A stretch of DNA of 29,154 bases from Dysgonamonadaceae bacterium (GTDB lineage Bacteria; Bacteroidota; Bacteroidia; Bacteroidales; Azobacteroidaceae): positions 1 to 29,154 of the forward strand of contig JAIRRK010000049.1 in NCBI GenBank assembly GCA_031256015.1, given 5' to 3'. The notes below the pieces were generated by a model. The model did not search any database and was not told the origin of the DNA. It saw nothing but the letters and a program-made list of their open reading frames with translations. Both the position numbers and the translations under genes were made by a program. This document shows, one piece after another, positions 626 to 28,774 of the stretch (position 1 is the stretch's first letter; each line of letters opens with the position of its first letter).

Positions 626-3600
626 ATGGAAAAAGTAGCTGCATTAGAAGTTGTGAATTGGGCAAAACAATTTTTGGAGAAAGCCGATAGAGAGCTTACT
701 CCCGACGAAGTGAAAGAGCAAAAGAAATATGCTTCATTGGTTCAAACGCCCGAATATAAAACTTTACTGTCTAAAATGTTAGATGAATCGTCTCAAATCA
801 GAGACAATTCAAAATTGAATCGGCGGGTAAAGCAAATCATAAAAGAATACGGTATTCCCGATTTTTTCAGTCCTTTCGATCGTTTACTTTTAAAGGCTTA
901 TATGAGCGTAGGATATTTATTTCCGGGTATTGCCATGCCGATATTCAAGCAAAAGCTGAGAAGCGAAACAACCAAAATTATTATAGCGGAAGAACGTCCT
1001 AAACTGACAAAACATCTGGAAAACAGATGGAACAGTCATATCGGACAAAATGTAAACCTTCTGGGAGAAGTTGTTTTGGGCGACGGAGAAGCCAATAATC
1101 GTTATCTCCACTATCTGGAAGCATTGGAAGAACCCGATATCAATTATATCTCCATTAAATTGTCGGGAATTTATGCTCAGATACATCCTCTGAGTTATGA
1201 ACAAAACAAGAAAGAACTTTGCGACATGGTTGCCTCCGTTTACCGGAAAGCCATAGACAATCCGTATGTGGATATGAAAGGAAATAAACGGGCGAAATTC
1301 GTTAATCTGGATATGGAAGAATACAAAGATACCGAATTAACTCTTGAAGTATTCATTGATGTCATGAGCCGTCCCGAATTTAAGAATTATCAGGCCGGAT
1401 TGGTTATTCAAGCATATCTTCCGGATGCCTCCCGTTTGCAGAAACGCTTGCTGGATTTTGCGAAAAAACGTTATGCGGAAGGCGGAGCTCCCATTAAAAT
1501 GCGTTTGGTGAAAGGGGCAAACCTGCAAATGGAAAGCATTATTTCTTCATTGAGAGGTTGGCCCAATCCCGTTTATCCGACCAAAGTGGAAGTAGATGCA
1601 AATTATCTGCATATATTGGATGTAGCTCTCCGGCCCGAAAACATTCAGGCTTGTCATGTAGGAGTTGCTTCTCATAACTATTTCAGTATAGCTTATGCAC
1701 ATTTATTGGCAGAAAAAAATGATGTCATGAAGTTTGTTACTTTCGAAATGTTGGAAGGAATGGCCAATAATTTGCCTCGTGTAATGCGTAAGCTGGAAAA
1801 GCAAATTATTCTTTACACTCCGGTAGTCAAATCAAATCATTTCTTGAATGCAATTTCTTATTTGGTTCGTCGTCTGGATGAAAATACGGGAAGAGACAAC
1901 TTCTTAAGTTATTCGTTCAATTTGAAATTAGACAGTCCTCAGTGGAACTTTTTAGCCGGTCAATTTTTAGAAGCCTATCAATTGAAAGAAACTGTTCGGA
2001 AAGAACCGTTCCGTACTCAAAACCGGAATGAAAAACCTGTTCCCGCAAACGATATAAATGTTTTTGAAAACGAACCCGATACCGATTTAGACCTTCCGTG
2101 GAACAGAGAATGGGCATTGAAGAAACTACATAAATGGCAAAATGAAGTGAATGACAAAAATTTCATTGTCCCTGTTCAAATTGGAGATGAAGAATTGATT
2201 ACGAAAGATAAAAAACTATACAAAGACAGAAGTCGAAACAATGAATTTACTTTTTGTGAAGCCAATTTATCTTCATTAGACGAAGTGAAGCAAATTATTG
2301 AGGCAGCGGAAAAAGATGCTTCAGGTTGGCGAAAAACTCCAATCGATAAAAGAAATAAACTATTACATAAAGTGGCAGATAACCTGAATGAAAAACGAGG
2401 CGATTTAATTGGTTGCATGGCTTCAATTACGGGAAAAACATTCACGGAAGGAGACGTGGAAGTTTCGGAAGCAATCGATTTTTGTCGTTATTATCCAATC
2501 TCGATGAAAGCCTTTGACGACCTAAAAACCGTTAAATCGAATCCCAAAGGAATTATTTTGGTTATTCCGCCTTGGAATTTCCCGTTAGCTATTCCTGTTG
2601 GAGGTGTTGCATCTTCTCTGGCAGGCGGAAATACCGTTATTTTGAAACCGGCAACAGTGGCCTTGCCGGTAGCATGGGAATTTGCCAAATGCTTCTGGGA
2701 TGCAGGAGTTCCCAAAGATGCTTTACAAGTTGTTTGTACCGCCGACCGTTCTTCGTTAAGTTATCTAACCGGTCATCCTTCGATTAAGCATGTAATTTTA
2801 ACCGGAGGAACCGATACGGCTTTCCGTTTATTGGAAAACAGTCCGCGTACTCCTTTGTCGGCCGAAACCGGAGGAAAAAACGCAATCATTGTTACTGCAA
2901 ATGCCGACCAAGATCATGCGATATTGAATATTGTTTCTTCGGCATTCAGTAATGCCGGACAAAAATGTTCTGCTTGCTCGTTATTGTTGTTGGATAAAAA
3001 AACCTACGAAGACGAAACTTTCAAATCGAAATTGAAAGATGCGGTAACCAGCCTGAGAACAGGCAGCGTTTGGGATACAATGAATATGGTAGGACCGATG
3101 ATTGATAACGATAATGAAAAATTATTGCATGCAATCGCCAATTTGGAACCGGGCGAATCATGGTTGGTTGCTCCTGAATTTTTAGACGAAAAGAAATACA
3201 TTCTTAAACCGACCGTTAAATGGGGAGTGAAACCGAGCAGCTTCACTTTCAAGAATGAATTATTCGCACCTTTATTATCTGTCGTTTGCATTGATGATTT
3301 GGAACAAGGTATCGAATACGCCAACTCGTCGGAATACGGATTAACAGCCGGATTGCAAAGCTTGAACGAAGAAGAGCATTTGATTTGGAAAAATAAAATA
3401 GAAGCCGGAAACTTATATATTAACAGAGGAATTACCGGCGCAATTGTTCGTCGTCAACCTTTCGGAGGAATGAAACGTTCGGCATTTGGCGGAGGAATCA
3501 AAGCCGGAGGTCCTAATTATGTTTCTTGTTTTATCGAATTTACCGAACAAAAATTACCTGAAACTCAAACTTCTTTTTGGAGTGAGATTTTGTCGAACGA

Positions 3601-4129
3601 TACAGAAAAAAATCGCTTGAATTATGCTTTTGAAAGCTTCACAAAAGCTTGGAAAAACGAATTCGGTAAAGAGAAAGATGTAAATCATATTTATGGCGAA
3701 GAAAACAAATTCCGTTATCTTCCATTAAAAAATGTAGGATTTCGAGTTCAAAATGAGGATGAATTATCGGATATTCTGTTGGTTATTTATGGTGCAAATA
3801 CAGCAAAAACGCCTTTGACGGTAAGTCTTTCCAACGAAAATAAATACAAGGGAGAAATAGAGAAAGTTATTTCCAAATTACCGAATATTACGCTTAAAAT
3901 TCAACCGGAATCAGAGTTTATTGAAGAAATGGATTCCTATGAGCGAATCAGAGCTTGTTCATCCCATCTTTCGGATGAAGCTTATAAAAAAGCCGCGAAA
4001 TCAGGGAAACACATTGCCGACATCAAACCGCTTGCCGAAGGACGTTTGGAATTACTGCATTACTTGAAAGAACAAAGTATAGCATACGAATACCATCGTT
4101 ACGGAAGTATATTCGGAGAAGAAAAATAA
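626..4129 (+). CDS. putA: Bifunctional proline dehydrogenase / L-glutamate gamma-semialdehyde dehydrogenase
   Basis: This enzyme oxidises proline to glutamate in two steps: an FAD proline dehydrogenase makes pyrroline-5-carboxylate and an NAD(P)-dependent aldehyde dehydrogenase finishes the reaction. The 1167-residue product has the PRODH barrel at about 80-450, with LVKGANLQ and a Y412..R415-R416 substrate-binding helix. The ALDH domain runs at about 540-1010, with PPWNFP (Asn651), ETGGK (general base Glu747) and the nucleophile Cys781 in AGQKCSAC. The last 130 residues, ending in YEYHRYGSIFGEE, look like the C-terminal ALDH-like domain and tail of longer PutA proteins. It lacks the N-terminal ribbon-helix-helix domain of E. 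coli PutA, so it should not be a DNA-binding repressor. The ATG follows an A-rich leader with no Shine-Dalgarno motif. It is monocistronic, and convergent with the chromate-transporter pair. Confidence 0.95.
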   Translation: MEKVAALEVVNWAKQFLEKADRELTPDEVKEQKKYASLVQTPEYKTLLSKMLDESSQIRDNSKLNRRVKQIIKEYGIPDFFSPFDRLLLKAYMSVGYLFPGIAMPIFKQKLRSETTKIIIAEERPKLTKHLENRWNSHIGQNVNLLGEVVLGDGEANNRYLHYLEALEEPDINYISIKLSGIYAQIHPLSYEQNKKELCDMVASVYRKAIDNPYVDMKGNKRAKFVNLDMEEYKDTELTLEVFIDVMSRPEFKNYQAGLVIQAYLPDASRLQKRLLDFAKKRYAEGGAPIKMRLVKGANLQMESIISSLRGWPNPVYPTKVEVDANYLHILDVALRPENIQACHVGVASHNYFSIAYAHLLAEKNDVMKFVTFEMLEGMANNLPRVMRKLEKQIILYTPVVKSNHFLNAISYLVRRLDENTGRDNFLSYSFNLKLDSPQWNFLAGQFLEAYQLKETVRKEPFRTQNRNEKPVPANDINVFENEPDTDLDLPWNREWALKKLHKWQNEVNDKNFIVPVQIGDEELITKDKKLYKDRSRNNEFTFCEANLSSLDEVKQIIEAAEKDASGWRKTPIDKRNKLLHKVADNLNEKRGDLIGCMASITGKTFTEGDVEVSEAIDFCRYYPISMKAFDDLKTVKSNPKGIILVIPPWNFPLAIPVGGVASSLAGGNTVILKPATVALPVAWEFAKCFWDAGVPKDALQVVCTADRSSLSYLTGHPSIKHVILTGGTDTAFRLLENSPRTPLSAETGGKNAIIVTANADQDHAILNIVSSAFSNAGQKCSACSLLLLDKKTYEDETFKSKLKDAVTSLRTGSVWDTMNMVGPMIDNDNEKLLHAIANLEPGESWLVAPEFLDEKKYILKPTVKWGVKPSSFTFKNELFAPLLSVVCIDDLEQGIEYANSSEYGLTAGLQSLNEEEHLIWKNKIEAGNLYINRGITGAIVRRQPFGGMKRSAFGGGIKAGGPNYVSCFIEFTEQKLPETQTSFWSEILSNDTEKNRLNYAFESFTKAWKNEFGKEKDVNHIYGEENKFRYLPLKNVGFRVQNEDELSDILLVIYGANTAKTPLTVSLSNENKYKGEIEKVISKLPNITLKIQPESEFIEEMDSYERIRACSSHLSDEAYKKAAKSGKHIADIKPLAEGRLELLHYLKEQSIAYEYHRYGSIFGEEK

Positions 4130-4252: not shown

Positions 4253-4780
4253 TCAGTAAACGAATAGTCCGGCTATTCCCGCCAGCAAGATTAACAATAT
4301 CGGATGTAGTTTGGTAAACATCGTGATAGTAAACGCTATTATAAAAATCAGGATACCGGTATAATCAATGAAAGTATCTTTATTCATTAATAATAAAGCG
4401 GCGGCGGCAATCAAACCTACTGTAACCGGACGTAAGCCCAGAAGAGCATATTCAACATACCGGTTTTTCCTGAATTTCAGGAAAGTTCTCGAAATGAGTA
4501 ATACCAAAATAAACGAAGGAAGGCATACCGCGAGTGTGGCTGTAATAGCTCCCCATACATTGTACGTAACCGTATACCCGATGTAAGTAGCCGAATTAAT
4601 TCCGATAGGTCCGGGAGTCATTTGGGAAATGGCAATTATATCGGCAAATTCGTTGTTCGATATCCATTGATGTTTGTCTACAATTTCATACCGGATAAGA
4701 GAAAGCATGGCATATCCCCCGCCGAAGCCGAAAAGTCCAATCTTAAAATAAGTCCAAAACAGTTGCCAATAAATGATCAT
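4253..4780 (-). CDS. Chromate transporter family protein, second half of a CHR pair
   Basis: This 175-residue protein is a single CHR domain with about six hydrophobic segments. It shows the family signature near the N-terminus (FGFGGGYAMLSLIRYEI, then DKHQWIS) and the downstream SQMTPGPIGINSATYIGY loop. Full-length ChrA proteins join two such domains; in bacteria with short forms, two adjacent genes make antiparallel partners that work together. Its partner lies 9 bases upstream and shares the same motifs. ChrA exports chromate in well-studied species, but the substrate here cannot be read from sequence, and many CHR proteins have no tested role. It is the last gene of the minus-strand series that includes porPKLMN. 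Confidence 0.9.
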   Translation of the reverse strand: MIIYWQLFWTYFKIGLFGFGGGYAMLSLIRYEIVDKHQWISNNEFADIIAISQMTPGPIGINSATYIGYTVTYNVWGAITATLAVCLPSFILVLLISRTFLKFRKNRYVEYALLGLRPVTVGLIAAAALLLMNKDTFIDYTGILIFIIAFTITMFTKLHPILLILLAGIAGLFVY

Positions 4781-4789
4781 TTGATAGAA

Positions 4790-5323
4790 TTATTTCCGCC
4801 ATTTTCCATAAACGATTCCACCCAAAGCAGCAATCAAAACAATATAAACAGGCGATAATCCCCAATACCAAATAAGCAAAGCAGCCGCAACGGGAATAAC
4901 AAGTGTTTTCAGGTTTATTCCGACCGATTTTGCAGTGGAAAATACGGGAACGGCAATTAATGCAACAACCGCCGGCCGAATGGCTTTAAACATTTTCCCG
5001 ATGTAAATATTGTCCTGAAAATTTCGGAAGAACATTGCAATCAGCAGTATCACCATAAACGAAGGAAGTATCGTTCCCAAAGAGGCAATTATACTTCCTG
5101 AATTTCCTTTCATCCGATAACCTGCAAATATGGCCGTATTAACGGCAAAAATTCCCGGAACGGATTGCGAAATGGCAATCATATCAACGAAATCTTTCGA
5201 GGATATCCATTGCTTTTTATCCACTATTTCTTTTTGAATCAGCGGAAGCATGGCATAACCTCCACCTATGGTAAACATACCTATTTTGGCAAAAGTATAA
5301 AATATTTGCCAATACATTTTCAT
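4790..5323 (-). CDS. Chromate transporter family protein, first half of a CHR pair
   Basis: This is a 177-residue single-domain CHR membrane protein with N-terminal FTIGGGYAMLPLIQKEI, DKKQWIS, and the SQSVPGIFAVNTAIFAGY loop, aligning end to end with the next gene. The two probably form a heterodimer. Its ATG at 5323-5321 overlaps the porN stop codon (ATGA, four bases), which suggests translational coupling to porN and places the pair in the type IX secretion operon. A second in-frame ATG at 5317 is an alternative start that would remove the overlap. Nothing is known to link CHR transporters to type IX secretion; shared transcription may be incidental. Confidence 0.9.
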   Translation of the reverse strand: MKMYWQIFYTFAKIGMFTIGGGYAMLPLIQKEIVDKKQWISSKDFVDMIAISQSVPGIFAVNTAIFAGYRMKGNSGSIIASLGTILPSFMVILLIAMFFRNFQDNIYIGKMFKAIRPAVVALIAVPVFSTAKSVGINLKTLVIPVAAALLIWYWGLSPVYIVLIAALGGIVYGKWRK

Positions 5324-6351
5324 CGTCTGTTTCGTCTTACACTTCGGGTCGGAGTTGATTTTTCGGAGTTGGAACGATTCTCGTCAGATGAGGCTTTTTC
5401 GTTTGTCGTATTCCTTTTCACGGAACGTTCTCTTTTGTTTTGCGTATCGGCTGCCGCTATTGTTGTTGTGTCTTTTTCCGTGGAGATTACCCAAAGTTTT
5501 TTGTTGAAATCCTTCAGTTGTCCCTCGATACTATCTTGAGCATGCTTCAAAGCTTCCGGTTCATTCCCGACTTGTTGAGCCAAACTTTGTCCCATTAAAT
5601 TGGTTGTCTTGACAATTTCCCCGGAATACATTTGTTTTCTGAAATAATCATCAATCGTATAAGTCAAGGCATTATTATAATTAGAAGTCATAATCATCTC
5701 GCGTGAGATATAAGGGCGAATGTCATCGTATTTAACCCAAAATAAAGGGTCGTTCGTTGTGCCGCCGAAATCGTCGTCATATCGTACCAGTAAAGGACAC
5801 AAAGCCATCACTTCCGTTTGAAAAGTTCCGGTTGCGGCATCGAAAAAGTAACGTTCTTTAATCATGTACATTGTCACTTCCGGACTGGGAATATCAATAT
5901 CTGCTACCGAAATACGTTCTCCTTCTTTGGAATACAATACTTGATACTTTGTCAATAGATTTTCGAAGTCGATTTTTTCTTCTTCGGTAAACACTTCTCT
6001 TCCGTCCAAGAAATTATAAGCCGGGATTTTGCCATCCATCAATAATTTGAACAGTATGGTGAAAAGATTCATTCTATTTCCGACAGGTTGAATCGGAAAA
6101 TACAAAGCTGCATTATTCTCTTTCGTGAGGTCCACAAAACGATATATTTCCCGTTCCCACAAAACATGTTCCGGAGCTTTCGACTCTATTTCGTTTTTTA
6201 TTTTGGCTCTTTCAGTCAAGGAAGGCAAAACATTCGAAGCGGTTTGTTCCGATGGTCTTTGGCGCACTCTCCTTTCCCTTTCCTGTCCCCATGCAGTTTG
6301 AGAGAAAACAAAAAACAATCCCAATAAAACAATATAATAAGCCGGTTTCAT
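5320..6351 (-). CDS. porN: Type IX secretion / gliding motility protein PorN (GldN)
   Basis: PorN is the periplasmic partner of the lipoprotein PorK; together they form the large ring under the outer membrane and contact the PorM shaft. The 343-residue product starts with a signal peptide (MKPAYYIVLLGLFFVFSQTAWGQ). The conserved core at about 45-285 contains LWEREIYRFVDL, a run around the ILFKLLMDGKIPAYNF helix, and MYMIKERYFFD, as expected for GldN. The last 50 residues are low-complexity, Ser/Lys/Arg-rich and end in RSVRRNRR; an Arg-rich stretch (RERRVRQR) also follows the signal peptide. It is last in the porPKLMN order, 13 bases after porM, and its stop codon overlaps the following CHR gene. 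Confidence 0.95.
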   Translation of the reverse strand: MKPAYYIVLLGLFFVFSQTAWGQERERRVRQRPSEQTASNVLPSLTERAKIKNEIESKAPEHVLWEREIYRFVDLTKENNAALYFPIQPVGNRMNLFTILFKLLMDGKIPAYNFLDGREVFTEEEKIDFENLLTKYQVLYSKEGERISVADIDIPSPEVTMYMIKERYFFDAATGTFQTEVMALCPLLVRYDDDFGGTTNDPLFWVKYDDIRPYISREMIMTSNYNNALTYTIDDYFRKQMYSGEIVKTTNLMGQSLAQQVGNEPEALKHAQDSIEGQLKDFNKKLWVISTEKDTTTIAAADTQNKRERSVKRNTTNEKASSDENRSNSEKSTPTRSVRRNRR

Positions 6352-6364
6352 ATAATTAATACTT

Positions 6365-7930
6365 TTAATTTACAATGATTTCTAAAGGTGTATTCAATCT
6401 TCTTTCGGTTCCGTCAGGCCCACGGACAACAATTCCTCTTAGCAAAGCAGTACTGTTTCTTTGTAAACCTCGGATCATATTTTTTTGACGATCAGAGAAA
6501 CGGGCTCCATTGGACGATTCTCTGACAGTAAGGTCCATCGACCCCAAAGTACTCACTTCAAAGCTGATAACGGTAAACTGTATATCCAAAATTCCGTCAT
6601 CGATGGCTGCATTCAAAGATTCGGCGGCAAGTAAAGCCGTTTTCGATAATCGGCCTCCTTTGAATCGGGTTTGATTTCCATCCGGATTGGTGATATTGAT
6701 ATAAGCCGAAGGATCGGGCAATTGCCGCACTCTGAAAGTGCTTTTTGCCATTTCTTGAGTTCGTCCTCCTGCAAGACGCGCATTAACGCTTATAATTGCA
6801 TCGGAGCCTAATCGAGGTTTCGCCACCCAAATACCATTTCCTCTATTTGTTAATGTTCCATTTGAAATGGTTGCGGTTACATTTTGATTGGCAACTCCCG
6901 GAACCGCTATTCTTATTTCGTTATCGATTCCCGCATACAACATATTCATTAAAACAGGAGCGACCGTCGCACTCGGCTCTACGACAAAGTATTGAGAAGT
7001 AAAATCATGTTTGGAGAAAGAGCCGTCACTGCGAGGCATCTCAATGTATCCGTTCACATTGAAAGAGCCGGTAGCAGCCGTTCCCGCTACATATTTTCCG
7101 TTCAATTCGTCATCCAACATTTTCCCATTTACAAAAACTCTCGGTTTTTGCGTTGAATCTAAGGCCGCTAAAACAATATCGGCACGATAAGGAGTTCCTC
7201 TCATTACCGTTTGTGCTTCCGGGATAACGAAAGCTTCGATTTTGTTTACGCGGAAATCATCTATATCGATATTTTTTCTCAAGTCGGCCAAAACTTCTCC
7301 TTCTGCGTAACGAATATCATTCTGCATTTTTGTCAAGAAAGCAATGGCTGCGGCCATAGGCACATCCAAGAATAAAGATTCTTCCCAAGATTCTTTGTTC
7401 TTTTTTGCTTTGGCGGAAGGTTCCGTACTCAGATTACTTTCGATGGTCGACTTGATTTGAGGATTATTTACCAATGACGACGCAAATACACGATAATTAT
7501 CCAATTCTTCTTTCAATTTTTTCGCGTGATTTTCTCCTCTTTTGAACATCACTTGAGTGGAAGCATTCAAATCATCCGGGTATTTCATGTTTTCCGGATC
7601 ACCGTCTTTTCCATCCGATTTTTTTACGATGTTTACCTTTAAATCTTGAATATAATTGAAAATAGAATCTGTTTTTGCTTTCACGGCAGCTGCGTGATCG
7701 TACCATTCTTTTGTTTTTTCCGGATTTGTTTCATAAGAAGTTTCCAAATCTTCAAAAATACGATCGTTGCGTTCTGTCGATGTTTTTACCGAGCGTAACA
7801 AGCTTTCTTCCACCAGCTCTATTCCTTCCAATACTTCGGTCGGAGCGTTCAGAGCTAACATGGCAATGAAAACCAGATACATCAGGTTAATCATTCTTTG
7901 TCTTGGCGAGTTTGCACTGTTTGCAGCCAT
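6365..7930 (-). CDS. porM: Type IX secretion motor shaft protein PorM (GldM)
   Basis: PorM is anchored in the inner membrane, pairs with PorL to form the proton-driven motor, and spans the periplasm to reach the PorK-PorN ring. The 521-residue product has one N-terminal transmembrane helix at about 13-30 (MINLMYLVFIAMLALN) preceded by basic residues Arg10 and Arg12; an Arg at this place in the flavobacterial homologue pairs with the PorL glutamate. A helical domain follows (about 35-225), then Ig-like beta domains, ending in LNTPLEIIVN. Length and layout match the family. It sits 25 bases downstream of porL. Confidence 0.96.
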   Translation of the reverse strand: MAANSANSPRQRMINLMYLVFIAMLALNAPTEVLEGIELVEESLLRSVKTSTERNDRIFEDLETSYETNPEKTKEWYDHAAAVKAKTDSIFNYIQDLKVNIVKKSDGKDGDPENMKYPDDLNASTQVMFKRGENHAKKLKEELDNYRVFASSLVNNPQIKSTIESNLSTEPSAKAKKNKESWEESLFLDVPMAAAIAFLTKMQNDIRYAEGEVLADLRKNIDIDDFRVNKIEAFVIPEAQTVMRGTPYRADIVLAALDSTQKPRVFVNGKMLDDELNGKYVAGTAATGSFNVNGYIEMPRSDGSFSKHDFTSQYFVVEPSATVAPVLMNMLYAGIDNEIRIAVPGVANQNVTATISNGTLTNRGNGIWVAKPRLGSDAIISVNARLAGGRTQEMAKSTFRVRQLPDPSAYINITNPDGNQTRFKGGRLSKTALLAAESLNAAIDDGILDIQFTVISFEVSTLGSMDLTVRESSNGARFSDRQKNMIRGLQRNSTALLRGIVVRGPDGTERRLNTPLEIIVN

Positions 7931-7955
7931 TCGTTATTTATTAAGAATTTGAAAA

Positions 7956-9041
7956 TTATACATTTGGATTTCCTTGTCCCGGATTCTGCGGATAAACCGG
8001 AGGTTGAGGATTGTATCCTCCTGTCGGTTGTTGCGGATAAGCCGGAGGAGTGTACATATTTACCGTCATCGCATTTAACAAGCGGCTATAAACTCCATTC
8101 AACTGTTGAAGTTGTTGAGCCATTTTTTCCGTTTCACTTCTGAATACAGAACTGTCGACAATGGATCCGTCATATAAATCTTTGATTCGCATCAAGCCCG
8201 AATTGATTCTTTCAATGGCATCAATTTGTGAACTGATACTTTTCAGTTGAATTTCGTAAATTGTATTTAATCCTTGTATATTTCTATTCAAACTTTCCAT
8301 TTGTAGAACATAACCTTTGGAAGACTGATTAATTCCGTCCGAATTATCGGTGATACTCTTGTACGAATTCAATAAAATATCGGAAACATTTGTCAGGTTG
8401 TTGGTAACTTCGCTGAACTTCTTCATGTCTTCCGACATGGAAGTCACTTGATTCAGATACTCTTGAGTAGCATCGGTCATTTCCGCCATTTTGGATAAAT
8501 GATCGGCGGCGGCGGCCATTTTTTTGATGCTTGCCGTCAGAGCATTGGTATCTTCTTCTGAAATATCAACCGCATTAGAAATGCCGAATGATTGACGTAC
8601 TTGTTCCGTAGACATATTTTCCACTGCTTCCGAATGGCTTTGAGGAGATTTTTCTCTTCCAAAGCTTGCTCCTCCGATAATTACGGTGCCTCCGCTGCCG
8701 GAAACACCCGTACTGGCTTCCGTGTTGGAAGATGCTCCGTTTTTTCCATTCTTAAAATCCGGTCGATCATCTTCTTCTCCCGTCTCCAATACCGGAAAAA
8801 CCCGATCCCATTGATATTCTTTGGAAGGACGATCGAATGCGGAAACAAAGAAAATGACAGCTTCAAAAACCATCCCTATTGTAAGTATTTCACTTCCTTT
8901 CTCCCAGTGATTAATTTTCGCCAAAGCTCCGATAATAACCACAGAAGCTCCGATACTGTAAAAAAATTGGAAAAACCGTTTCCCTTGATCTTTTGCTAAA
9001 AACTTCTCTACAAAGTTTTTATATTTTCTCTTGATTCCCAT
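7956..9041 (-). CDS. porL: Type IX secretion motor protein PorL (GldL)
   Basis: PorL is the ring component of the PorLM rotary motor in the inner membrane, powered by the proton gradient. The 361-residue product has two transmembrane helices near the N-terminus (about 24-42 and 50-68). The second contains the conserved Glu60 in IGMVFEAVIFF, which corresponds to the membrane glutamate essential in characterised homologues. The rest is a cytoplasmic domain with a long helical, coiled-coil-like part at about 155-320 and a Pro/Gln/Gly-rich tail (PPAYPQQPTGGYNPQPPVYP). It lies between porK and porM in the usual order. Confidence 0.96.
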   Translation of the reverse strand: MGIKRKYKNFVEKFLAKDQGKRFFQFFYSIGASVVIIGALAKINHWEKGSEILTIGMVFEAVIFFVSAFDRPSKEYQWDRVFPVLETGEEDDRPDFKNGKNGASSNTEASTGVSGSGGTVIIGGASFGREKSPQSHSEAVENMSTEQVRQSFGISNAVDISEEDTNALTASIKKMAAAADHLSKMAEMTDATQEYLNQVTSMSEDMKKFSEVTNNLTNVSDILLNSYKSITDNSDGINQSSKGYVLQMESLNRNIQGLNTIYEIQLKSISSQIDAIERINSGLMRIKDLYDGSIVDSSVFRSETEKMAQQLQQLNGVYSRLLNAMTVNMYTPPAYPQQPTGGYNPQPPVYPQNPGQGNPNV

Positions 9042-9075
9042 TATATAATGATGTCTAAATTTATTTGTTTTTAAT

Positions 9076-10575
9076 TTATCTTCTTCTCACACTGTTTCTT
9101 GCGCCTCCACCTCCGGAACCTCCTTTTGCGAATCCGACTTGAGTTCTCACGCAACGAAATCCTATATAAGACCGTTGTTCGTTTTGATACTCAAAAGTAC
9201 GGACATCCGATCGAATAAAGTGAGCCACATCTTTCCATGATCCACCTCTTACGACTTTCTTTTTCATTGCATAAGGATCTTCTTTTGCTGCGCTGTATCG
9301 GTATTCCGGATTAATATCATTCATGATATCCGGTCCCGATTCAAGATAAGCAGTTGACGTCCACTCGGAAACATTTCCGGCCATGTCATACAATCCGAAT
9401 TCGTTCGGAGAAAAAGAAGCCACTTTCGAGGTAATCAGATGACCGTCGGCAGTATAATTTCCTTCTCCCGGTTTGAAGTTTCCCAAGAAACAATCTTTAT
9501 TTCCTCGAGTTCCTTCGCTCATCCACGGATAAACGTTTTCCGATTGTCCGTTTCTCGCGGCATATTCAAATTCCGTTTCCGTTGGCAGGCGATAAGGTTC
9601 TATGGTATTTCTATGAGACTCCGGAAGCGATTTTTTCAAAAATTCCGTTCTCCAGTTACAAAAAGCGTTCGCTTGTTCCCACGAAACTCCCACAACCGGA
9701 TAATCATCGTATCCCGGATGATTGAAATACAAACGCATATAAGGTTCGTTGTATGCATTGTTGAAATCGTTTATCCAAACCGATTCATCCGGATAAACAT
9801 TAAGGATATAGCTGTTTTGAAAATCCCAAAGCGATTCCAATTGTCGAGTAATTGTTTCATTGATAATTCGACCTTCATCGTCGTAATAAGCCGTATCTTT
9901 TGAAATCATGATGACTTCTTCGAGGTCGGCCGCAACATCGGTGTTATAAACTCTTCTTTCGGGATTTAACCGGTTTCGCCTCAAAGCTGCTTGTGCAGCG
10001 TCAAAAGTAGAATAGCGATAAATCATTTGTTCCGGATCGAGCCTTACTTCTTTTGTAACCGGATGAGTCCAATTCACACTCAGGATAGCAGCCAATTCAT
10101 CCTCATTTGCTCTTCGTTCCGAAGGGATAGGTCTTTTCCAATCGAGAATAGGAGGTTCGTATGGATTTCCATCTCTATCTTCCTCTATTTTAAACAAATC
10201 GTTTCCTCCATAAGCCGGGTCATACAAACGTTCTCTTATAATGGAATCGCGCACCCAATAGACAAATTGTCGATATTCGGCATTGGTAATCTCCGTGTCA
10301 TCCATCCAAAAATTATCTACTGAAATTCCTTTCGGATTTTGATGTATTCCCCAAATCGTATCGTTCTCCGGCGGACCCATCTCAAATGACCCTCTTTTAA
10401 TAAGTATCATTCCATGCGGATTGGGTTCCGACCAAGACATGGCCTTTACTCCCGTAAGTTCGCCTCCGTCCCCTGCGGAAGATCTTCCACAAGACACAAG
10501 AGCGAATGTAAAAAACAAGAACAACGAGGAAAGAGAAAAAATCATTTTCAATCCTCTCTGTTTTTTCCTTTTCAT
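9076..10575 (-). CDS. porK: Type IX secretion lipoprotein PorK (GldK), FGE-sulfatase fold
   Basis: PorK is an outer-membrane lipoprotein that forms the periplasmic ring with PorN. The reading frame extends up to an ATG at 10629, but the start at 10575 (MKRKKQRGLKMIFS) gives a proper lipoprotein signal: basic n-region, hydrophobic core and the lipobox LVSC, with the lipidated Cys at residue 29. A third ATG at 10545 has AGAGAGGA seven bases before it and remains possible. The body is a formylglycine-generating-enzyme-like domain, with VNWTHP, PVVGVSWEQANAFCNWR, LPTETEFEYAARNG, LYDMAGNVSEWTS, and VVRGGSW...YIGFRCVRT near the C-terminus. In PorK this fold is structural. The protein ends in a Gly-rich linker and NSVRRR. 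Confidence 0.94.
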   Translation of the reverse strand: MKRKKQRGLKMIFSLSSLFLFFTFALVSCGRSSAGDGGELTGVKAMSWSEPNPHGMILIKRGSFEMGPPENDTIWGIHQNPKGISVDNFWMDDTEITNAEYRQFVYWVRDSIIRERLYDPAYGGNDLFKIEEDRDGNPYEPPILDWKRPIPSERRANEDELAAILSVNWTHPVTKEVRLDPEQMIYRYSTFDAAQAALRRNRLNPERRVYNTDVAADLEEVIMISKDTAYYDDEGRIINETITRQLESLWDFQNSYILNVYPDESVWINDFNNAYNEPYMRLYFNHPGYDDYPVVGVSWEQANAFCNWRTEFLKKSLPESHRNTIEPYRLPTETEFEYAARNGQSENVYPWMSEGTRGNKDCFLGNFKPGEGNYTADGHLITSKVASFSPNEFGLYDMAGNVSEWTSTAYLESGPDIMNDINPEYRYSAAKEDPYAMKKKVVRGGSWKDVAHFIRSDVRTFEYQNEQRSYIGFRCVRTQVGFAKGGSGGGGARNSVRRR

Positions 10576-10644
10576 TCTGATTGGGGTCGATTTACTTTGG
10601 AAACTTTTATTTTCAAGTATTTCCTTCATGTTTTAATCTTAAAT

Positions 10645-22651: not shown

Positions 22652-25600
22652 CTATCTTCCGCAACAAGCTTTGTATTTTTTTCCGCTTCCGCAAGGACAA
22701 GGATCATTTCTTCCAACAGTTTTTTCCACGCGAACAGGTTCTCTTTTTTGTTCGCGGGTATCACGTCGTGCGACATCACCCTGTAGTTTTCTGCTATCGG
22801 CTAATTCGTCTTTTTGCGTTTGGTATCGACTGTAATCCGTTTTCTTTTCCGGTTCGGCTTCTCGGATTTCTTGTTCACGAATGTAAACCTGTCCTCTCAT
22901 TAATACGGAAACAGTCTTTTTGTTCATCGAATTAACCATGTTCTTGAACAAATCGAACGATTCCAATTTATAAATCAACAAAGGGTCTTTATTTTCGTAA
23001 CTTGCATTTTGAACCGATTGTCTTAAATCGTCCATTTCGCGAAGATGTTCTTTCCACGACTCGTCAATCGAATGAAGCAGAATCGATTTTTCGAATGATT
23101 TCACAATGTCTTTCGATTCCGTTTCGTAAGCTGTTTTCAAATTACAACTGATATTGTAAATCTTTTTTCCGTCGGTTATCGGAACCATAATATTTTCAAA
23201 ACGATTTCCAAATTCTTTGTAAGCTCGTTCGATATTCGGCTGAGCAACTTGAATCATCCGTTCGTTTTTCCGTTTGAAACTATCCACTGCCGCACTGAAA
23301 ACAGTTTCAACTATTTCATCTTTCTTTGTATCTTTAAACTGTTCTTCCGTAACGGGAGTTTCCAATGCCAATGTTTTGAAAAGTTCAAATTTCAGACCTT
23401 CGTAATCTTTTGATTCATAAAAATCTTCCGATATGGTTTGAGATGTATCATATAATATATTCAAAACATCCAATCCGATGCGTTCTCCCATCAAGGCATT
23501 TCTCCGGCGTTTATAGATTACTTCTCTTTGGGAATTCATTACATCATCGTATTCAAGCAATCGTTTACGAATACCGAAGTTGTTTTCTTCCACTTTCTTT
23601 TGGGCTCGTTCTACCGATTTGTTCAACATGCTATGTTCCAACACTTCACCTTCTTTGAATCCCATTTTATCCATCATTCCGGCGATTCTTTCAGAGGCGA
23701 ATAAACGCATCAAATCATCTTCAAGTGAAACGAAGAATACGGAAGAACCCGGGTCTCCCTGACGACCGGAACGACCACGCAACTGCCTGTCGACGCGCCG
23801 GGAGTCATGGCGTTCCGTACCGATAATTGCCAAACCTCCTGCTTCTTTCACTTCCGTAGAAAGTTTGATGTCGGTACCACGACCGGCCATGTTCGTAGCG
23901 ATAGTAACCGTTCCTTTTTGTCCGGCTTGAGCAACAATTTCGGCTTCTTTCTGGTGCAATTTCGCATTCAAAACATTGTGCGGAATTTTACGCATATTAA
24001 GCATCCGACTTAATAATTCGGAAATTTCCACTGAAGTTGTTCCGACCAATACCGGACGTCCTTGTTCTCTCAAATTAATAATTTCTTCAATTACGGCAGC
24101 ATATTTTTCCCGAGCTGTTTTGTAGATACGATCGTTCATATCGTTTCGAGCAATGGGCCTATTCGTCGGAATAACAACTACATCCAGTTTATAAATATCC
24201 CAAAATTCACCGGCTTCCGTTTCCGCAGTACCGGTCATACCGGCTAATTTATGATACATTCTGAAATAGTTCTGTAATGTAATCGTTGCGAAAGTTTGAG
24301 TGGCCGCTTCTACCGTCACTCGTTCTTTGGCTTCGATTGCCTGATGCAACCCATCGGAATACCGACGACCTTCCATAACCCGACCGGTTTGCTCGTCAAC
24401 AATTTTCACTTTATTATCGACAACGATATATTCATCGTCTTTTTCGAATAAACAATAAGCTTTCAATAATTGGTTTACCGTATGAACCCGTTCCGATTTG
24501 ACGGCATAGTTTTGCATCAATTCATCTTTCTTCGCTTGTTTTTCATTATCCGAACCGGCTTCTTTTTCGATTTCCGCTATTTCAACTCCGATGTCGGGAA
24601 GGACAAAGAAATACGGGTCTTCCGAATTTCCGGTTAATAAATCGATTCCTTTATCGGTCAACTCGATGGAGTTATTCTTTTCATCAATTACAAAAAACAA
24701 TTCATCGGTGATGATATGCATTTCGCGGTTTTGCTGTTGCATATAAAACTCCTCCGTTTTCAACATATTTGCCTTAATTCCCGGTTCACTCAAGAATTTA
24801 ATCAAGGCTTTGTTTTTGGGCATTCCTTTGAAAGAGCGGAACAGCAATTTAAACCCTTCTTCGTTGATTTTCGAATCTTCCGAACCTATCAGTTTTCTGG
24901 CGTCGGTTAAAAGATTGTTGGTTAATTTTTTCTGGATACCGACTAAACTTTCCACCCTTCCTCTGTATTCTTCATACAATTGATCTTCTCCTTTCGGAAC
25001 CGGTCCCGATATGATAAGAGGCGTACGGGCATCGTCAATCAATACGGAATCGACCTCATCGACGATGGCATAATTGTGTTTTCTTTGAACTAAATCTTTC
25101 GGACTGATTGCCATATTGTCTCTCAAATAATCAAAACCGAATTCGTTATTCGTTCCGAATGTAATATCCGCTTCGTAAGCTTTGCGGCGTTCGGGAGAAT
25201 TGGGTTTATGTTTATCGATGCAATCGACAGACAGCCCATGAAACATATACAAAGGCCCCATCCATTCCGAGTCGCGTTTCGATAGATAATCGTTTACCGT
25301 TACAACATGAACGCCATTGTGAGTCATTGCATTCAAGAAAACGGGCAAAGTAGCAACTAAAGTTTTTCCTTCTCCGGTAGCCATTTCGGCGATTTTACCT
25401 TTGTGAAGCACAACGCCTCCGAACAATTGAACGTCATAATGAATCATGTCCCAGACAATCTCGTTTCCTCCGGCTACCCAATGATTTTTATAAACGGCTT
25501 TATCTTTTTCGATGGAAACAAAATCGTGATCGACAGCCAATTGCCTGTCAAATTCCGTTGCCGTAACTTCGATGGTTTCGTTTTGAGTAAACCGTCGAGC

Positions 25601-25951
25601 CGTATCTTTTACGATAGCAAAAACTTCCGGAAGAATTTCTTCCAATGTTTTTTCGTGTTCATCCGTGATGTCTTTTTCTATTTTATCTATTTCGTTCCAA
25701 ACGGATTCTCTTTCTTCTAATTCCAAATTTTCAATTGTTGATTTTAATTCGATGATTTTTGCCTGTTTTTCGGCCACTTTTTCTTGAATTAAATTCATTA
25801 ATTCTTGCGATCGTTTACGCAAATCGTCATTGGAAAGTTTTTCTATTTCGAAATAAGCCGCCAAGACTTTTCTTACATAAGGATCAATCTCTTTTAAATC
25901 TCTTTGAGATTTATTTCCGAATAATTTTGTTAGGATATCATTAAAACCCAT
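22652..25951 (-). CDS. secA: Preprotein translocase ATPase SecA
   Basis: SecA powers export through SecYEG. The 1099-residue product carries Walker A (MATGEGKT, 190-197), the DEVD box (298-301), [15 protein letters not shown], the second nucleotide-binding domain with [10 protein letters not shown] and [14 protein letters not shown], the scaffold helix and the C-terminal zinc-binding tail [18 protein letters not shown] (Cys1085, 1087, 1096, 1097). It is about 200 residues longer than E. coli SecA (901). Much of this is a charged helical insertion at about 50-130 before Walker A, and there is another around 330-420; both are usual in Bacteroidota. It follows the PafA-like gene by 29 bases. Confidence 0.98.
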
Positions 25952-25980: not shown

Positions 25981-27558
25981 TTATTTATTTGTAATTTCTC
26001 TCAATGCAAATTCTTTGCACGCATTGGGAGGTCGTATTCGTAAAATGAAGGAAAGAGACGATGCTATTTCCGCGACATTTATTCTTCGGTCGATGTTTTC
26101 TTTTTTAATGTTTCGTCCGTAAATGAATAATGGAGACGGAATCATATTATCACGTCGATATTCTTTCTTATCATTTCCTTTTTCGTCTACAATTATCCAT
26201 CCGGGCTGTAATTCGACAAAAATATCTCCGCTCAATTTGGAGTACATTCCTCTGCGAAAGTAAGCCGAACGTTCCGAATCATTGTTTATTTGTTGTCCGG
26301 ATGTCGTTACATCTTGAACTCCGGTAAACTGAGAAACAAACTCGGCCGCTTTCCGAAGCAGTTCTTCCCATTTGACTTGTTTCTCTTCAGCCAATTTTTT
26401 GTTCAGATATATCTGATTTTGATAAAAAGCATTCACCCAATTGCCTTGTCCGTAAACGGCCATCAAATACATATTTAACAAGGCCGTACAACGGTTTGGA
26501 TGAAACTCTCCGGCTGGCTGATAACCTTCGGGCAATAGATTGAGAGAATCATAATATCCCGATGAAGTGAGAAGAATCAGCGCATTTCCCATTCCCACTT
26601 TTTTATCGATTGTATCGAATAATTTTTCCAACTCTTTATCTAAGCGATAGTAGATGTCTTGAATTTCGAAACTGTATTCTTCACAATTTTCACCGAATTT
26701 ATAATTTCCCGCGTAATAAGTAAGAGCCAATAAATCGGGAGTTACATTTCGACCGAGTCCGTTCGATTCCATAAATTGAATGGCCAAATCGGTTACTTCG
26801 CTATTAATCAGCGATGATTGTTTTATTTTCAAAAAACGATTGTTGTCCGATTTGGGAAACGAATAGGAGAACGAAGTTGTTCGTGTTGAATAAGGGAATC
26901 CGATGTAATGAGAATGTGACTGAGTCCATGTTTTATCGGAATAATTTCCTATGGATGACGTCGAATTATATCTATCGACAAAATACGGTAAATCCTTATA
27001 ATAAGTCGTAGTAGCCCATTTTCCGTTGTAATCATCGAGCCAAAAAGCACCGTCGGCATACCTTCCGGCCGAAACAATTGCCTGTGCTGCATTAGGTGCT
27101 ATGGAATAAACTTTACTTTTCCCATTCGAAGCGATTTTCAATTCATCACCGATTGTACTTGCCTGTAAACTCAGCGGAGAAAATCTGTCGGTGGTGTAAT
27201 TCCCCATGAAATTATTATCGGCAACAATCGAAACTTCTCTGTTTAACGAGAAATCGTATTTCTTATTACCGGTTATTCCGTGATAATAAGGATATGTTCC
27301 CGTATAGATACTTGCCGCAGAAGAGGCTTCGCTTAAGTTGGGAAATCCAAATTCGACCGAATAATAATACAATCCTTCATTCATGAGCCTCTTAAATCCT
27401 CTTTCTCCGAATAAGGAACTGAAATAATCCAAGTAATCTCCTTTTAATTCGTTAACAACAATACTCACAACCAACTTGGGAGGCGTTACTGTCGATTGCT
27501 GAGCTTTTAATCCCGTTACACTTAAAAGCACGATTAAAGGTGCTAACCATTTACTCAT
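25981..27558 (-). CDS. PafA-like alkaline phosphatase superfamily protein, probably catalytically dead
   Basis: The fold is that of the PafA/nucleotide pyrophosphatase branch: [59 protein letters not shown] and [12 protein letters not shown] lie in the expected order. Compared with PafA, key residues are gone: Asn36 replaces the first metal Asp, the Thr nucleophile region reads [10 protein letters not shown], the K-x-R pair near [12 protein letters not shown] is absent, the DYVGH site reads GNYKFG, the Asp-His of LTADHG reads SSG, and Met472 replaces the last His. The ATG at 27558 starts a signal peptide ([20 protein letters not shown]), so it is periplasmic. A TTG at 27579 would overlap lnb and is less likely. 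It lies between lnb and secA; a binding or scaffold role is inference. Confidence 0.85.
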
Positions 27559-27568
27559 TTGAGATCGT

Positions 27569-28774
27569 CTATTTTCCAAATCTAAATCTTTTATTTTTTT
27601 TCATGTAATAAAACCAAGAAACCGATGCAAGGAACAAACATAAAGCATAAGGAATATTCGCTGTATTCAATGTTTGCGGAATCCATAACCATCCGAATAA
27701 CAAGATGCACAAAAGTACTAAATTAAGCCCATGAAACAAAGTGATAAGAGGGTAAGATTTCTTGAAAAAATATCCGGCAAATCCGATAAAATGCAAAGGA
27801 TGCAACCACAAAATATTCCAATTGGGAGAAACACAGGGATGCTCCGAAAAGAATAATAAGAATCCGACGACGATTCCGCAAAGTCCGGCAATCAGGAAAA
27901 GGATACTGAAAACTCCCTTGAACATGCGTTTCTTTCGAATACTCCAAACAGTGACTATCAGATAAAAAACGAAAATCAAAATTCCTACACGGAAAGCATC
28001 AAAAAAGCTTGCCGTTTTTTCGTTTTGTTGTGACTCGGTTTTTAATATTGTTTGAGACAATTCAACAATCGGCCGTTTCACGGTTGTTGAATCCGTTTTC
28101 TCGATTACATAGCTTTCATCCCAAAATTCTTTTAAGTTCACAGGCAGAAACATTTGCTGCCGAACATTGATTAACGAATCCGCTCCGTTTCCGATAATAA
28201 GATCAATGCCGAAAGACATCCACGGATAGGGAGAGGTACAGGAACGGATTAAATCACGAAACGTAACTTCTTTTTCCGAAGCAGGATAAATCACCCGATT
28301 GTCCGTTATTTTTTCGATAATGTCTCTTATTCGGGTCGTGCAATTATCGAACAAAAAATTGTACCGGTAAACGATATTTTGAGGAAGCAAATTATTCGAT
28401 AATATTTCCAGCAGTTTTTCCTTCTCTCCGGAAGAAAGGTTCAATACCTGCTCTTCGATGGTGGAGTTTCCCAGCGCGTAATAATACAGAAATTCGTTGT
28501 AATCCGATACGCCCAATGAATAATCGGTTTCCCCCTTGATAAAGCGATACAAAAAAAATGAATGATTAAAACTGAATATTCCCCAATTATAGACATCGTT
28601 TATTCCTTTTTCGGGATAATATAAACGCAAAGCGGAATGTCCGTAAACCGTATAAACCTCATTCGGACGAGGCATTACAGTCAGCAGGCTGACTTGCAAA
28701 CTGTCGGTATTTATCGATTTAACGGATGGAACGGAAAATAAAAACAGAAAGACGACAATAAGATATTTTCTCAC
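27569..28774 (-). CDS. lnb: DUF4105 membrane protein, lipoprotein N-acyltransferase Lnb
   Basis: The 401-residue product has a signal peptide (1-20), a periplasmic DUF4105 domain (about 25-250) and about five transmembrane helices (255-395). The domain contains the likely catalytic pair of a papain-like fold: His46 in VYGHSALRLYY and Cys145 in FLFDNCTTRIRD, with YNWGIFSFN between them. DUF4105 proteins of Bacteroides have been identified as Lnb, which adds the third acyl chain to lipoproteins where Lnt is missing. That fits a genome with many surface lipoproteins such as PorK and the DUF4374 protein here. Translation starts at GTG. A -7-like box lies 27 bases upstream. The PafA-like gene follows after ten bases. 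Confidence 0.82.
   Translation of the reverse strand: MRKYLIVVFLFLFSVPSVKSINTDSLQVSLLTVMPRPNEVYTVYGHSALRLYYPEKGINDVYNWGIFSFNHSFFLYRFIKGETDYSLGVSDYNEFLYYYALGNSTIEEQVLNLSSGEKEKLLEILSNNLLPQNIVYRYNFLFDNCTTRIRDIIEKITDNRVIYPASEKEVTFRDLIRSCTSPYPWMSFGIDLIIGNGADSLINVRQQMFLPVNLKEFWDESYVIEKTDSTTVKRPIVELSQTILKTESQQNEKTASFFDAFRVGILIFVFYLIVTVWSIRKKRMFKGVFSILFLIAGLCGIVVGFLLFFSEHPCVSPNWNILWLHPLHFIGFAGYFFKKSYPLITLFHGLNLVLLCILLFGWLWIPQTLNTANIPYALCLFLASVSWFYYMKKNKRFRFGK

Follow-up and report, generated by a model that had tools for sequence, protein, structure and literature searches.

The window, a stretch of 29,154 nucleotides from a Dysgonamonadaceae bacterium (GenBank assembly GCA_031256015.1, contig JAIRRK010000049.1), carries a gene for a PafA-derived pseudophosphatase that lies between lnb, encoding a lipoprotein N-acyltransferase, and secA (Table 1). 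The Lnb of the window scores 357.7 bits, below the NCBIfam cut-off of 550. Elsewhere in the window, gldN, gldM and gldL stand at 5320-10629 with an FGE-sulfatase-domain gene, which we take to be GldK-like, as a type IX secretion core cluster. Positions 626-4129 hold a gene for a proline dehydrogenase/aldehyde dehydrogenase fusion and 4253-5323 a chromate-transporter-family gene pair.

Table 1. The pseudophosphatase gene, its altered active-site codons and its neighbours (window positions)
Feature	Position	Strand	Basis
PafA-derived pseudophosphatase gene, 525 aa	25981..27558	(-)	
Signal-peptide-like start, about residues 1-20	27499..27558	(-)	by eye; AlphaFold pLDDT <50 at residues 11-22
Asn36 codon, against PafA Asp38	27451..27453	(-)	alignment
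Lys39 codon, against Arg in 119/119 listed homologues	27442-27444		
Glu77 codon, against PafA nucleophile Thr79	27328..27330	(-)	alignment
Asn285 codon (YAGNY motif), against PafA Asp305	26704..26706	(-)	alignment
Ser333-Gly334 codons, against PafA Asp352-His353	26557..26562	(-)	alignment
Lys465 codon, against PafA His486	26164..26166	(-)	alignment
lnb, lipoprotein N-acyltransferase, 401 aa, YGHS and DNCTT motifs (His and Cys)	27569..28774	(-)	
secA, 1099 aa, downstream neighbour	22652..25951	(-)	

An AlphaFold model and a structure comparison revealed the PafA fold along the full length of the window protein, bearing out the fold assignment of an earlier note on this DNA. The two-zinc site of PafA, which we take to consist of D38, D305, H309, D352, H353 and H486, aligns with N36, N285, E290, S333, G334 and K465 of the window protein, while T79, N100, K162 and R164 align with E77, N98, N156 and A158, so that only N100 is retained. 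None of the seven ligand and nucleophile residues is kept, as the earlier note had read by eye, and the losses are shared across the Bacteroidales. Further, the protein differs from PafA (PDB 5tj3; NCBIfam NF042991) not only at all seven positions but also in its score of 315.3 bits against the family model, below the equivalog cut-off of 650, and in its site between lnb and secA. By these predictions, the window protein is a catalytically dead, PafA-type pseudoenzyme of the alkaline phosphatase fold.

Our homologue searches, one with the single gene and one with a fusion to Lnb, each scored about 8000 candidates, of which the best 120 were listed. Among the 119 listed close homologues of the window protein, none has a His at the position of H309, H353 or H486 and at most three of the seven residues are retained; at most two are retained in 80 named loci and in two groups of Lnb fusions, A (73 proteins) and B (46 proteins). 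Homologues in the same place were examined for a full catalytic set and none keeps one. An intact set of ligands elsewhere in the protein was also looked for and not seen, and no His is conserved at 97% in 120 sequences. Cys357 was considered as a new catalyst and rejected: it is conserved in the close family but is Ala in L033 and L034. The protein could still be an enzyme that uses another metal set or another chemistry, in keeping with the Asp found at the D38 position in nearly all close homologues (119 of the 119 listed) and at D305 as well in 36 of the 119. We consider this very improbable given that no His is conserved, that the window protein itself has lost every one of the seven residues, and that the H353 position is Gly in 118 of the 119 listed homologues and all 80 named loci and Pro in all 73 group A fusions. 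Because D38 is Asp in every listed homologue, Asn36 is, by alignment, a further change particular to the window protein's own lineage; Asn at this position recurs in 17 of the 73 group A fusions. Asn36 and Lys39 are both lineage-specific departures beside the dead site.

The residues that replace the catalytic set are themselves conserved. Across 146 core sequences, Gly334 is found in 144 and Tyr335 and Gly284 in 134 each, and these and other positions are at least 90% conserved, unlike in intact PafA. The pair Gly334-Tyr335 serves as a core-clade signature, from which fusion group A differs. The signature set was drawn from 20 of the 118 single-gene homologues, 16 of the 46 group B fusions and 19 of the 73 group A fusions. 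Since conservation of the substitutes signals constraint, the replacement of the active site looks like a remodelled pocket and not like drift. One possibility is that the old active site still binds phosphate-bearing ligands such as lipid A or phospholipid head groups, making the protein a lipid sensor akin to PbgA/YejM. The remodelled pocket loops YAGNY and TSTGYY are conserved, which fits this idea, and there is a precedent in PbgA, described in the sections drawn on here as having an AlkP-fold domain that lacks the usual catalytic residues, lies beside five membrane helices and binds cardiolipin (PMC7018646). However, the nucleophile, K162, R164, H309 and H486 positions are highly variable among homologues so no shared phosphate clamp is visible, and we regard a lipid sensor of this kind as unlikely. 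The earlier note's proposal that the protein binds phosphate-bearing ligands such as lipid A is, with these positions varying freely, unsupported.

Decay of the gene in this one genome was rejected because the same losses are common to the whole clade and because, save for one stop in G116, every match in the linked genomes is an open frame. Together with the signal-peptide-like start, this agrees with the view that the protein is maintained and exported. Intact PafA is also present separately in three genomes (G035, G116 and G156), so the pseudophosphatase is not merely a worn-out sole phosphatase.

To define the distribution of the gene, we built a profile from nine lnb/secA-linked sequences and set a presence threshold of 485 bits. 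PafA-like matches of any kind occur in 97 of 158 Bacteroidales genomes; 24 of the 158, the window's included, reach the threshold and the next score is 431. A draw of 119 genomes from across the class yields just four that reach it (G000, G090, G131 and G181), all of them of this order, and the next best score is 376. Three lower scorers (G116, G172 and G074) were added because lnb adjoins the gene or is fused to it, which gives a linked set of 27 genomes from 18 families. A scan of named genomes found 532 relatives, and the best 80, picked by sequence similarity, come from Parabacteroides, Tannerella, Dysgonomonas, Seramator, Massilibacteroides and unnamed relatives. No pseudophosphatase match was identified in G003 and G021, two reduced endosymbiont genomes of the window's genus (about 1 Mb, 99% complete) that keep Lnb. 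In G003, a different gene follows lnb.

The order lnb, pseudophosphatase gene, secA, which the earlier note pointed out at this locus, recurs widely. Among the 24 score-picked genomes, lnb adjoins the gene in 22 (exceptions G063 and G165) and secA in 23 (exception G165); with the three added genomes, the counts are 25/27 and 24/27, respectively. A scripted rule found both neighbours adjacent in 72 of the 80 named loci. The laboratory commensal Parabacteroides distasonis (L095) is among the species with the cluster. At one further locus (L090) both neighbours are present and frames overlap, five run off the contig on one side, and L080 and L134 have secA beside the gene with no lnb nearby, Lnb being present elsewhere in the L134 genome. 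The linkage is looser in the window's own genus. There, 22 of the 24 other genomes with a match were tallied (the partial matches in G012 and G016 were dropped), 15 of them having lnb beside the gene and 13 having secA; three loci show neither neighbour despite enough sequence to do so, and all seven genomes without an adjacent lnb still have Lnb.

These counts bear on whether the pseudophosphatase is instead a SecA- or Sec-linked periplasmic export factor, perhaps chaperone-like, with lnb merely a shared operon neighbour. Adjacency to secA is slightly more frequent than adjacency to lnb in the score-picked genomes and holds in nearly all of the 80 named loci with room to see it, and secA stays beside the gene where lnb does not in L080, L134 and G063 (the last representing family f31, with lnb located elsewhere). 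However, family f42 has the gene with lnb and no secA within the fetched stretch, and in family f66 (G098) a gap of about 190 bases separates lnb from its neighbour secA, with no pseudophosphatase gene present. The presence of the gene also tracks Lnb, and the fusions seen, which were found with an Lnb-fusion query, are to Lnb. Other than one Lnb fusion of 926 aa, no open frame of the gene in the 27 genomes exceeds 574 aa, too short for a SecA fusion. On balance we find a role in export improbable.

Lnb is present in 24/24 pseudophosphatase genomes compared to 53/134 others (Fisher p 4e-9, for genomes that are non-independent and uncorrected for phylogeny), or, in a partly circular comparison, in 27/27 compared to 50/131 when the three adjacency-picked genomes are included. 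The reverse does not hold: 50 of the 77 Lnb genomes have no pseudophosphatase, so the protein is not generally needed by Lnb. Lnt scores above its curated cut-off in 94 of the 158 genomes, in none of the 24 score-picked genomes and in one of the 27 (G172, which has both Lnb and Lnt). The pseudophosphatase is found in 26 of 59 genomes with Lnb and no Lnt above the cut-off and in none of the 76 Lnt-only genomes. The many genomes in which Lnb occurs alone, along with the loose linkage in the window's own genus, would suit an unrelated envelope role for the protein, its position beside lnb and secA being inherited gene order. We think this quite unlikely, as gene-order inertia alone would hardly produce Lnb fusions in separate lineages together with co-occurrence in 24 of 24 genomes.

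In G074, a single open frame of 926 codons, read from the DNA, encodes Lnb and a pseudophosphatase domain. This fusion as a query found 164 proteins; among the 120 listed, 106 combine the Lnb_N, 5TMH_Lnb and PF01663 domains and 14 have Lnb domains only, and loose patterns for the Lnb motifs recover the His in 114 and the Cys in 116. The source names include Paludibacteraceae, Bacteroidaceae and Bacteroides sp. Lnb and a dead phosphatase occur in one protein in at least two well-populated lineages (P0194, of 642 aa, was left out of all fusion counts and P0099 out of groups A and B). In a quick tree with SH-aLRT support only, the fused state needs three changes, each forced by well-supported branches. 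Most simply these would be three separate fusions, but a single gain with two losses would account for them as well. The third fusion rests on P0099, a single metagenome protein that may be an assembly artefact, and without it two fusion lineages remain. The printed junctions of 41 fusions show, by eye, basic residues and a hydrophobic signal-peptide-like stretch past the last Lnb helix. This stretch would carry the second part into the periplasm, and the fusions may be cut apart there. An AlphaFold model of one fusion, made with 78 sequences, has both parts well folded (pLDDT 87.5) and a disordered linker. Its pTM of 0.56 is about the value that would be expected of one domain alone, and so a rigid interface between Lnb and the pseudophosphatase is not supported and we claim none.

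Building on the established PafA fold, the clade-wide loss of ligands and nucleophile, the conserved substitutes and the co-occurrence, adjacency and fusion with Lnb, we propose that the dead PafA-type protein is an exported, periplasmic and lineage-specific accessory of Lnb, either a subunit or a dedicated helper, in Bacteroidales that mostly lack Lnt. We would give this reading a probability of roughly 0.55. The earlier suggestion of an undescribed envelope factor therefore stands, with Lnb as its best-supported partner, but the function guessed for it needs changing. The pseudophosphatase would be exported and meet Lnb in the periplasm, the signal-peptide-like stretch carrying the domain across in the fusions. 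There it may aid Lnb by presenting the diacylated lipoprotein, by positioning the phospholipid donor or by gating activity. The dead domain itself would perform no phosphate chemistry, and its exact job is the least certain step of this scheme.

Lnb itself was reportedly published by Armbruster in 2024. It is described as a permuted NlpC/P60-type acyltransferase, and DUF4105/Lnb as displaced by Lnt in three gene contexts, in a source whose section 11 does not mention a phosphatase (PMC12994826, in the parts drawn on here). Relative to the known Lnb (DUF4105) of Bacteroides, the pseudophosphatase is an adjacent gene or a fusion partner and has no NlpC/P60-type domain of its own. By analogy only, the Lnb fusion resembles PbgA/YejM in its coarse layout, with an AlkP-fold domain next to five membrane helices, and PbgA shows that such a domain can act on lipids although it lacks the usual catalytic residues. 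The sections drawn on for PbgA describe no NlpC/P60-type domain such as the Lnb fusion has (PMC7018646). Moreover, PbgA/YejM has its own membrane domain whereas the window protein has nothing of the kind beyond a signal-peptide-like helix at its N terminus. Our limited literature search found no published account of a pairing between Lnb/DUF4105 and an alkaline phosphatase, though print may hold one. If true, a dedicated Lnb partner that is fused to it in whole lineages would alter the view of lipoprotein maturation in gut Bacteroidales.

The nearest relatives of the linked clade in our tree are unlinked PafA-like proteins of the Bacteroidales. The window protein falls into starred sets of 3, 6 and 32 rows, in which every row carries an lnb/secA-linked or Lnb-fused label, although L158 and L165 in the 32-row set have no lnb beside them. 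The linked and fused rows sit inside a grade of PafA-like proteins that are unlinked and for the most part degenerate, which suggests that catalysis was lost no later than the tie to lnb arose. However, the intact L173, L179 and L182 also lie within that grade and several branches are weak, so that any succession of losses is tentative. Of 31 unlinked proteins fetched, 23 retain at most four of the seven residues and eight retain all seven. In Bacteroidales proteins named "alkaline phosphatase family" by way of PF01663, the unlinked ones included, much of the PafA catalytic set is often missing, a caution for surveys that tally them as phosphatases.

With the 27 linked genomes set aside, PafA-like matches occur in 39 of 50 Lnb genomes compared to 30 of 81 others (uncorrected for phylogeny, with the weak match G188 left out). 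In six genomes (G043 C15, G152 C82, G118 C109, G123 C6, G110 C9 and G150 C17), the PafA-like gene has a full Lnt gene 0.65 to 18 kb away, by distances taken by eye and against a chance expectation of 0.55 that was set by hand. The distance is shortest, about 0.7 kb, in two of the six that belong to one genus. A broader and more doubtful idea is that Lnb and a dead AlkP domain form a two-part N-acylation machine in many Bacteroidales, in which the domain would sense or present a lipid or lipoprotein and set the activity of Lnb, with a PbgA-like layout of independent origin. Because PafA-like matches track Lnb and two genomes have one so close to lnt, the unlinked degenerate proteins may serve such a machine in trans.

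None of the 31 unlinked loci has lnb within the fetched stretch. L188 has secA 2.8 kb away. Some unlinked loci show a different, recurring neighbourhood, varying subsets of which are shared by L036, L041, L042, L046, L178, L182, L185 and L189. We take its genes, named by eye, to be GGGP-synthase-like, Sfp-like, GldD-like and GldE-like on one flank and M14-peptidase-like and YchF-like on the other; the GGGP-synthase-like gene is found in 8 of the 28 loci compared.
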